Assembly (NCBI GenBank): GCA_035653615.1
Contig: DASRBN010000031.1
Span: 124,001-188,000, forward strand
Direction: 5' to 3'
DNA length: 64,000 nucleotides
Source: Ktedonobacteraceae bacterium
Lineage (GTDB): Bacteria > Chloroflexota > Ktedonobacteria > Ktedonobacterales > Ktedonobacteraceae
This document shows positions 49,174 through 52,074 of the stretch, piece after piece. The translations under genes and the position numbers were made by a program. The notes under the pieces were generated by a model. It worked only from the letters and a program-made list of their open reading frames with translations. It searched no databases and had not been told where the DNA came from. Within the stretch, counting starts at the first letter, position 1. Every line of letters begins with the position of its first letter.

Positions 49174-49325
49174 TATTGAAATAACCTCCTGTGCGAAACT
49201 TTTTGTTATTGTACCATCTTTCTGTCCTATGCTGGCAAGCAGCTTGTCTCTGTTTGGTTGAGTAGAACGTGTATGCTATTAGTGATATTTCTTCGGTAAA
49301 AAACGAAATAGATTGGTGGTATAGC

Positions 49326-49730
49326 ATGGACAGTGACGACTCTATTCAATCAGACCCCAGCGAGCTAAAAACGGTGATGATTGTTGAAGACGACGCGGGC
49401 ATTGGCAACTTTCTTGTCCAGGCAATTCAGCAAGAAACACCCTACCAGGCAGTGCTGGCCACCGATGGCTTTCAAGCCTTAAAGATGTTGCACACCTTGA
49501 AGCCAGATTTGCTCATTCTGGATTATAGCCTTCCCGGTATGAACGGTCTCGAGGTCTATGATCAAGTCCATGCAAACAAGGAATTGGAACATATACCCGT
49601 GTTGATAATCACTGCCGAAACATTGCGCGTGCAAAAAGAGGTGAAAGCCCGGCAAATCTCTCTATTGCAGAAGCCATTTGATCTTAGCGAACTCCTCGCT
49701 GCTATTGATCAATTATTTGCGCCATCTTAG
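49326..49730 (+). CDS. Stand-alone response regulator receiver domain (CheY-like)
   Basis: 134 residues from ATG 49326 (a GTG at 49269 would add 19). It is a single REC domain: acidic pocket VMIVEDDAG, phospho-acceptor Asp in LLILDYSLPGMNG, Thr in VLIITAET and Lys in LLQKPFDLSELL. There is no output domain. The partner kinase is not adjacent; the HTH-HATPase gene 1.4 kb downstream lacks a phospho-acceptor His and is an unlikely donor. It is divergent from the hydrolase/LLM operon. Confidence 0.9.
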   Translation: MDSDDSIQSDPSELKTVMIVEDDAGIGNFLVQAIQQETPYQAVLATDGFQALKMLHTLKPDLLILDYSLPGMNGLEVYDQVHANKELEHIPVLIITAETLRVQKEVKARQISLLQKPFDLSELLAAIDQLFAPS

Positions 49731-49895: not shown

Positions 49896-50303
49896 ATGGC
49901 GAGGGAAAAGGGTACATCTGCATTTTCAGCACATTCTCGACGCCGGCCTTACCAGGTAGATCACTATATCAATCAATTTTTGGATGCTACCTGTGATGAG
50001 AGCCGGCGTGCCATTCTAGAGCTGCTTGTTCCGCCTGACGGACAGGATTCCCCGGAGGCCTACGAGCTGCGCGCGGGAGATATTGCCAGGCAATTAGGGC
50101 TGGCTCGATCTACAACCTCGGAGCACTTGCACCAGTTGCTCAAAATGCACCTGGTAAGTACGCGTAGAGAGGGTACGATGGTCTATTACAGGCTGCGCAA
50201 TCGTCACCTGGTGCGGGCTTTCCATGAATTGCTACGTGCGCTGGAAACCCATTATACCGCCCAGAGCGCGGCTATGGAGTCTCCAACAGCTGCGGGAGAA
50301 TAA
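49896..50303 (+). CDS. ArsR-family transcriptional regulator
   Basis: 135 residues with a winged helix at about 25-110: HYINQFLDATCDESRRAILE, ELRAGDIARQLGLARSTTSE (recognition helix), HLHQLLKMHLV and REGTMVYYRLRN (wing). There is no ELCV-type metal-binding Cys pair in the recognition helix. It is a paralogue of the protein at 50609-50998, sharing DxSRR-ILELL, G-IA-LGL-TTSEHL-QL and VYYRL. The ATG follows AAAGGATAGCATT. The target is not known. Confidence 0.9.
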   Translation: MAREKGTSAFSAHSRRRPYQVDHYINQFLDATCDESRRAILELLVPPDGQDSPEAYELRAGDIARQLGLARSTTSEHLHQLLKMHLVSTRREGTMVYYRLRNRHLVRAFHELLRALETHYTAQSAAMESPTAAGE

Positions 50304-50608: not shown

Positions 50609-50998
50609 TCAGGACAGCTGCTTCTGATAATACTGTTCCAGCGTTCGCAGCAGGTCTAAAAAGGCCTGGACAAGCAAGTGATTTGACAAACGATAGTAGA
50701 CCGCGGTTCCCTGTTTGCGAGTTGTAACCATGTGGAGATTGGCGAGCTGGCGCAGGTGCTCAGAGGTGGTAGCGCTGCTCAATCCGAGTTCTTGAGCGAT
50801 TTCTCCAGAGCGTAGCTCCGTAGGGACGGATGGGTCATTGTCGTTGGGTGCGGCAAGCAGCTCCAGAATATAGCGGCGGCTCGTGTCGCATACTATGGAT
50901 AGAAATTGATCCACAAACGCATCTAATTCTGACGAACGATGCAGGATGCTGGAATGTGCGCGGTTTAGCCTTACGGCGGCAGTCTTTTTCCGAGGCAT
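50609..50998 (-). CDS. ArsR-family transcriptional regulator
   Basis: 129 residues with a winged helix at about 28-118: FVDQFLSIVCDTSRRYILEL, ELRSGEIAQELGLSSATTSE (recognition helix), HLRQLANLHMV and KQGTAVYYRLSN (wing). It is a paralogue of the neighbour at 49896, in convergent orientation. No metal-ligand motif was seen. It is transcribed away from the HTH-HATPase gene, with 134 bp between starts. A palindrome in that gap (51087-51105) is a candidate operator for autoregulation and control of the HATPase gene. GGGAG precedes the ATG. Confidence 0.9.
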   Translation of the reverse strand: MPRKKTAAVRLNRAHSSILHRSSELDAFVDQFLSIVCDTSRRYILELLAAPNDNDPSVPTELRSGEIAQELGLSSATTSEHLRQLANLHMVTTRKQGTAVYYRLSNHLLVQAFLDLLRTLEQYYQKQLS

Positions 50999-51086
50999 CG
51001 CTTTATTACGCTCCCTTCGTAAGAAATGGGGAACTTTCTGACAGGCGGAAGAACAAAACTCTTCCCTGTCTATATCTTATAACCGC

Positions 51087-51105
51087 TTATCATGTCTTAT
51101 GATAA
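51087..51105. promoter_or_regulatory. Palindromic operator candidate between arsR-like and HTH-HATPase genes
   Basis: TTATCAT-gtctt-ATGATAA is a 7+7 bp palindrome overlapping a second one, CATGT...ACATG (51091-51109). AT-rich palindromes of this size are typical of ArsR-family sites. It lies in the divergent promoter region, 89 bases from the arsR-like start and 28 from the HATPase start. Confidence 0.5.
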
Positions 51106-51132
51106 CATGCCAGGTGAAAGGGTGAGGTTGAT

Positions 51133-52074
51133 ATGCCATCCTATCTTACGACAGCAGATGTGGCTACACGTCTGGGTGTCAGTCTCGATACCGTCCGGCG
51201 CTGGTTACGCAGCGGTGAACTCAAAGGTACTCCCTTTGGGCGAGCGGGCTACCGTATTGAAGACGCAGATTTCGAGGCATTTTTACTTCAGCGTCGACGG
51301 CAATCTCAGGAGTTCAGTACCATTTCTCCTGGACAATTTGCTCCAACCGGTACGGCGTTGGTAGAGTTGATGAATGCGCTTGGCCAGGAATTGCGCATGC
51401 CGCTTGCCACGACACGAGGCACGCTACACCAGGCGCGCCGTCTGCTTCAACGCGCACTAGAATCGCCTTTACCAGATACGGCAGTAGATCTACTCGCAAG
51501 GCTTCAGGAGGTGCTGGTACGCGCAGAACGACAGGTCGCAGCAGAGATTCGGCTGGCGGGCAACCTGCTGGATGCCTCTCGCATTGAAACAAACATGTTC
51601 GAACTTTCCCCGGCATGGTGCAATCTGGTCGAAATTGTGCGCGAAACTGTCTCAAGCCTGCAAGAACTTGCCGGTCAAAAAGTCATCGAGCAGGAACTGC
51701 CTGCTGATGACCTGGTAGCGGTGATTGCCGATGCTGATCGCATCAAGCAGGCATTAACCAATTACCTTCTGAACGCGCTCAAGTTTTCTCCCAACGATCA
51801 ACCAGTTAAGGTATTGCTGGCCGTAAATGATTCGCAGGCACGTGCCGCGGTGCAGGACAAGGGACCGGGAATCCCAGATTCAGAGCAGCATATGATATGG
51901 GAGCGTTTCGGACAGGGACAGAGGCGTCCGGCAGGTTCGGGAAGTGGGCTGAGGCTTGGTTTATACATCACCCGGGCCATCATTCAGCAGCATGGTGGCC
52001 AGGTTGGCGTCGAAAGCCAGCCTGGGGAAGGCGCTACGTTCTGGTTCACGCTTCCCCTGGCGGATGAGACATAA
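51133..52074 (+). CDS. Excisionase/MerR-type HTH protein fused to a histidine-kinase-like core lacking the H-box histidine
   Basis: 313 residues with no membrane helix. Residues 1-55 are an excisionase-type winged HTH: YLTTADVATRLGVSLDTVRR, then WLRSGELKGTPFGRAGYRI. Residues 75-160 form a DHp-like helical hairpin where the usual SHELRTPL reads GQELRMPL, so the phospho-acceptor His is Gln85. Residues 190-310 are a HATPase_c domain with the N box NYLLNALKFSP, G1 VQDKGPGIP, F box WERFGQG and G2 GSGSGLRLGLYITRAI. ATP binding looks intact, but classical autophosphorylation does not. The domain order suggests a DNA-binding protein gated by nucleotide. There is no response regulator in the operon. 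Confidence 0.88.
   Translation: MPSYLTTADVATRLGVSLDTVRRWLRSGELKGTPFGRAGYRIEDADFEAFLLQRRRQSQEFSTISPGQFAPTGTALVELMNALGQELRMPLATTRGTLHQARRLLQRALESPLPDTAVDLLARLQEVLVRAERQVAAEIRLAGNLLDASRIETNMFELSPAWCNLVEIVRETVSSLQELAGQKVIEQELPADDLVAVIADADRIKQALTNYLLNALKFSPNDQPVKVLLAVNDSQARAAVQDKGPGIPDSEQHMIWERFGQGQRRPAGSGSGLRLGLYITRAIIQQHGGQVGVESQPGEGATFWFTLPLADET

Follow-up and report, generated by a model that had tools for sequence, protein, structure and literature searches.

The gene at 51133..52074 of the DNA analysed here, a stretch of 64,000 nucleotides from a Ktedonobacteraceae bacterium (GenBank GCA_035653615.1, contig DASRBN010000031.1, positions 124,001 to 188,000 of the forward strand; hereafter the window), encodes a DNA-binding domain fused to a histidine kinase core. 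The best overall explanation, to which we give an even chance of being right, is that a transmitter without chemistry has become a dimeric docking module bound to DNA, DivL-like in this respect. The reading is supported by Gln85, Met89 and Arg274, which occupy three catalytic positions. The protein and its parts are as follows.

51133..52074, + strand: HTH_17-DHp-HATPase_c protein of 313 aa (ORF, translation, Pfam and AlphaFold2 model)
51133..51300, + strand: HTH_17 (MerR/excisionase-like) DNA-binding domain, residues 1-56
51361..51612, + strand: DHp helical hairpin, residues 77-160, seen as two long helices in the model
51613..52071, + strand: HATPase_c (CA) domain, residues 161-313
51385..51387, + strand: Gln85, codon CAG, at the phospho-acceptor position (alignments)
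51397..51399, + strand: Met89 codon at the phosphatase Thr/Asn position, +4 (alignment; rule from PMC3510030)
51952..51954, + strand: Arg274, codon AGG, in place of the second Gly of the G2 box (alignment A1)

The reading frame with an excisionase-type HTH, as described in the initial annotation, is real. Its HTH_17 match in Pfam spans residues 4-55 with an E value of 2.7e-12 (47.2 bits against a curated cut-off of 27), and the HATPase_c match covers residues 200-310 (E 8.3e-26). The HisKA match at residues 77-153 remained sub-threshold (E 0.082). Because Pfam found no Response_reg in the 313-aa protein, it is not a hybrid two-component protein with a receiver in the same chain, and the statement that it has neither a receiver nor a membrane part was borne out. 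The AlphaFold2 model, built from a 50-row alignment, reached a mean pLDDT of 85.9. It predicts an N-terminal HTH and a linker poorly ordered near residues 67-69, followed by the DHp (helices 72-109 and 115-152) and the CA domain. The best solved-structure matches of the model are kinase cores, namely WalK, HK853 with RR468 and ZraS; acceptor-less H260A HK853-RR468 complexes are also among the matches, and DivL (4q20) lies within the 25 best. As modelled, the window protein folds like a normal transmitter.

Alignment A1 comprised 50 rows of kinases, window included. Gln85 falls exactly in its acceptor column, as had been claimed; 48 of the 50 rows have His there and the other two Gln. An earlier 132-row alignment had the same column filled in 64 rows, with 61 His and three Gln, one of the latter (L086) visibly misaligned. 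Column 89 of A1 contains Thr/Asn in 44 rows, Ser in 3 and Met in 3 (window, G010 and L092). The kinase boxes had all been described as intact, which holds for the N box (N210, N214), the G1 box (D242, G244, G246) and the F box (F259), but not for the G2 box: it reads GLRLGL, and column 274 is Gly in 49/50 rows and Arg in the window copy alone, as known from one assembly. Two Ktedonobacteraceae kinases (L044 and L046) in the 132-row alignment also have an unusual G2 box, with Ser for Gly, together with an acceptor His. Met89, as well as a free-standing receiver gene at 49269-49730, had been missed by the initial annotation.

In the CrdS passages of PMC3510030, the H371A variant lost autophosphorylation and kept phosphatase activity (CrdA~P half-life of 2.6 min, versus 53.5 min without kinase); N375A, at the +4 position, lost phosphatase activity (CrdA~P half-life of 47.6 min) and kept kinase activity. 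The same passages describe a PleC His mutant in which both activities were gone, and the CrdS rule therefore does not hold for every kinase. They include no case of Met at +4, and we infer the effect of Met89. An active HisKA kinase has an acceptor His, an intact G2 box and Thr/Asn at +4, and the window protein has none of them. The alignment thus supports the view that it should be unable to autophosphorylate on the usual residue, and by analogy with the published point mutants of other kinases it has probably lost its activity. The window copy is best read as a non-phosphorylating DNA-binding protein. Its description as a nucleotide-binding transcription factor derived from a kinase therefore stands in part: it is kinase-derived and DNA-binding, but nucleotide binding is doubtful because of Arg274, and since a lone receiver gene is nearby, the protein may not act independently of a receiver.

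Arg274 likewise weakens the view that the protein is a nucleotide-switched one-component regulator, in which ATP/ADP on the CA domain alters DNA binding without a partner. A DNA-binding output domain is present in the same chain as the kinase-derived core, and the strong HATPase_c match with its three intact boxes speaks for such a switch. However, the conserved G2 Gly is lost, and for DivL, whose acceptor is lost in a similar way, PMC4211667 gives weak binding of an ATP analogue (57 uM). We consider this switch unlikely.

The order and class searches covered the same 47 genomes, and the phylum search covered 400 genomes with at most five candidates scored per genome, so that remoter homologues could be missed in the latter. 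In these searches of Chloroflexota two close homologues were found besides the window protein, and the next-best matches fall to 50% identity over the core. A scan of genome contigs (80 loci) gave no close homologue, with a best identity of 43% over the core. The homologue in G010 (L021) is 67% identical over residues 1-312 and has the same HTH-DHp-CA layout with an acceptor His (VGHELRMPL). The one in G019 (L022) is 75% identical over 66-313 and lacks an HTH, its acceptor being Gln (VGQELRTPL) and its G2 box intact; the HTH search gave no match at E<=1e-8 anywhere in G019. For window, G010 and G019 respectively, codon 85 reads CAG, CAT and CAG, codon 89 reads ATG, ATG and ACG, and codon 274 reads AGG, GGA and GGA. 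Met89 is therefore common to window and G010, and Gln85 to window and G019.

The three homologues form one clade (99/94) in the tree, which does not settle the branching order among them. Site counts lean weakly to window plus G019 (4, versus 2 for window plus G010 and 0 for G010 plus G019). The change from His to Gln may accordingly have happened once or twice. His in a homologue of the same layout had been named as grounds for refutation, and the G010 protein provides it as far as conservation of Gln in this architecture is concerned. Thus a dead kinase is not a requirement of the architecture, and since the Gln core is kept without an HTH in G019, it has some use besides DNA binding. By the CrdS rules, the G010 protein should be a kinase without phosphatase activity, the G019 protein a phosphatase without kinase activity, and the window protein neither.

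HTH-kinase fusion is not unique to the window; it recurs in the order. At E<=1e-8 the HTH search of the 47 genomes found matches in 12 of them, 13 in all. Seven are fused to kinase sequence (window, G010, L120, L121, L122, L124 and L128), and the other six are small free proteins with frames of 67-100 aa. The acceptor is His in 6/7 of the HTH-kinases and Gln in the window copy. The five further ones resemble the window protein in their N-terminal HTH_17 before the kinase core, and differ from it by PAS/GAF-like or long middle regions and an acceptor His (5/5). Pfam, run on L120 alone of the five, gave HisKA at 7.5e-13 and HTH_17 at 9.6e-11; the PAS/GAF label of L121, L122, L124 and L128 is a reading of frames by eye, and the fetched stretches of L120-L122 and L128 stop short of the full CA domain. 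The idea that Gln is fixed in the HTH-kinase architecture was rejected, given the His in G010 and in these five proteins and the Gln homologue without HTH in G019.

Selection on the gene was estimated as dN/dS by the Nei-Gojobori method. The values were 0.113 for window versus G010 (310 codons) and 0.121 for window versus G019 (240 codons); silent sites differ by 69% between window and G010, and they are saturated between G010 and G019. Between window and G010 conservation is highest in the HTH, with 51/55 residues identical and zero second-codon-position changes, compared with 4/18 in the linker, 53/84 in the DHp and 100/153 in the CA domain. Purifying selection on the frame means that the gene is not plainly decayed. 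It might still be a kinase gene whose function is being lost on the window branch, with Arg274 and Met89 as marks of decay instead of a new role, as the several lesions in one copy and the six window-only changes at conserved sites would suggest. But dN/dS of 0.11-0.12 argues against this, changes at conserved sites do not pile up on the window branch (6, versus 5 for G019 and 10 for G010), and Met89 also occurs in G010 and Gln85 in G019. Neither dN/dS nor these counts gave any sign of relaxation; decay was kept as a rival, one that we hold to be quite improbable.

Four features upstream of the HTH-kinase gene bear on its possible role.

49269..49730, + strand: free-standing receiver domain, likely start ATG 49326 (Response_reg 6.1e-21)
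49896..50303, + strand: ArsR-type regulator ArsR1 (HTH_5 4e-07), 71% to the ArsR directly before the G019 Gln kinase
50609..50998, - strand: divergent ArsR-type regulator ArsR2 (HTH_5 1.3e-06; NF033788 above cut-off)
51066..51109, no strand assigned: conserved 44-bp block, a putative promoter/operator, which holds a palindrome

The block sits in a 134-bp intergenic region, and 43 of its 44 bases are identical at the same place in G010, a different genus, although silent sites differ by 69%. Within it, 27 bases ahead of the HTH-kinase start codon, lies the palindrome TTATCAT-N5-ATGATAA (51087-51105). The divergent ArsR2 shares 89/129 aa with the divergent ArsR of G010. The proposal of a local regulatory unit made up of an ArsR neighbour and a palindrome is supported in that the promoter site is conserved beside the divergent ArsR gene. 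A sigma-70-type promoter scan gave nothing above shuffles. In the 6.59-Mb genome the palindrome has one perfect match, that at 51087-51105, and a palindrome regulon was rejected on the basis of perfect sites; at <=2 mismatches there were 29 forward matches versus 10 for the reversed-pattern control.

ArsR2, the 44-bp block and the HTH occur together in window and G010. In G019 neither ArsR2 nor the HTH was matched at the thresholds applied, and the surroundings of the kinase gene hold no palindrome with <=3 mismatches; sites with <=2 mismatches are likewise absent from the stretches fetched for the other HTH-kinases. Because ArsR2 and the HTH both co-occur with the palindrome, which of them binds it is not decidable from co-occurrence, and the palindrome could be an ArsR2 operator rather than an HTH site. 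A copy with two mismatches, TTATCAT-TTTGT-ATGATAA, is found in G019 on contig C921 (L171 1501-1519), upstream of what was read by eye as a receiver-like gene, and a near copy occurs twice in G003 (C208 and C336). These sites lie elsewhere and may belong to another regulator.

The gene order in the window is receiver, ArsR1, ArsR2 (on the other strand) and HTH-kinase, with the receiver 1.4 kb upstream of the HTH-kinase. In G019 the Gln kinase lies behind a receiver and ArsR1, all in the same direction, and its ORF starts 53 bases after ArsR1 (ArsR1 ends at 809, ATG at 863). A receiver match lies within about 0.2 kb of the ArsR1 match in 13/21 genomes having the latter. Adjacent in so many genomes, the receiver and ArsR genes make up a module that recurs in the family and has a Gln kinase attached to it in window and G019. 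The pair converges in 11/13 cases and runs in the same direction in 2/13 (window and G019). No kinase gene was seen directly beside the converging pair in six fetched examples (L161-L165 and L168), as judged by eye from ORF starts. In G010 the receiver and ArsR1 are not beside the HTH-kinase, which lies on contig C751, the pair being on C732. The neighbours of this HTH-kinase (L167 1287-5912) are a KaiC-like gene, a receiver-like gene, a HisKA kinase and a receiver-kinase-receiver hybrid, a row reminiscent of KaiC-linked signalling clusters.

Concerning the window protein as a docking module, its domains, lost residues, selection, conserved promoter block and gene surroundings are observed here, whereas we infer its DNA target and dimer state. 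Two HTH_17 domains, joined by the DHp four-helix bundle, would bind the inverted repeat, which fronts both the HTH-kinase gene and arsR2, so that both could be controlled. The DHp-CA part would neither make nor remove phosphate, and would act as dimeriser and docking surface. The docking partner would most likely be the free-standing receiver 1.4 kb upstream or a related one, much as DivK~P is for DivL, and docking would change DNA binding. Receiver docking by itself is a tentative proposal that draws on the gene neighbourhood. What counts against the docking module is the acceptor His of G010, the separation of the receiver and ArsR1 from the HTH-kinase there, and the single assembly behind Arg274. 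Alternatively, the dead protomer might pair with an active kinase. The DHp dimer helices are kept in the model and 62 kinase-like matches occur in the genome, the gene itself included, several at 40-43% identity, but heterodimers between paralogues so distant are uncommon and the window genome holds no second HTH_17 match at E<=1e-8, which makes such a pair very unlikely even with the precedent of the next sentence. The ChrS pseudokinase heterodimerises with HrrS, as described in part of PMC9491836.

For the docking module, the closest known parallel in chemistry is DivL of Caulobacter. In the passages of PMC4211667 that deal with it, DivL has its acceptor His replaced (Tyr550) and its transmitter fold kept, shows no kinase or phosphatase activity and senses a single-domain receiver, DivK~P. 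DivL differs in that it carries PAS domains and lacks a DNA-binding domain; all its homologues have the acceptor replaced, whereas here the acceptor varies (Gln in 2/3, His in 1/3). With HK853/CrdS-type HisKA kinases the window copy shares the DHp-CA fold; unlike them, it is without the acceptor, the phosphatase Thr/Asn and one G2 Gly. The hybrid two-component systems (HTCS) of Bacteroides also combine a kinase core and a DNA-binding domain in one chain, but the window protein has no receiver domain, and its HTH is N-terminal and of another type. Among open-licence papers, with most subscription journals outside this scope, we found no description of a DNA-binding transmitter in which the acceptor, the phosphatase residue and a G2 Gly are all changed.

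Pseudokinases and HTH-kinase fusions are each already known; what is new is their combination and the differing lesions among homologues. The finding is less striking than the initial annotation held, because proteins of this architecture do not all have the acceptor change, yet it is still informative because the homologues differ at informative residues. With little probability, we also entertain that they form a series arising from one small transmitter via point changes at the acceptor and at +4, with G010 as a promoter-bound kinase lacking phosphatase activity, G019 as a free phosphatase lacking kinase activity and coupled to the receiver-ArsR pair, and the window protein as a promoter-bound, catalytically silent receiver sensor. 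If so, a dead kinase would read the phosphorylation state of a receiver directly on DNA. The residues at which the homologues differ are those that separate kinase, phosphatase and docking function, which makes them a small natural series for a dead kinase core, and a few small soluble proteins would test the reuse of a kinase core as a receiver-reading transcription factor.
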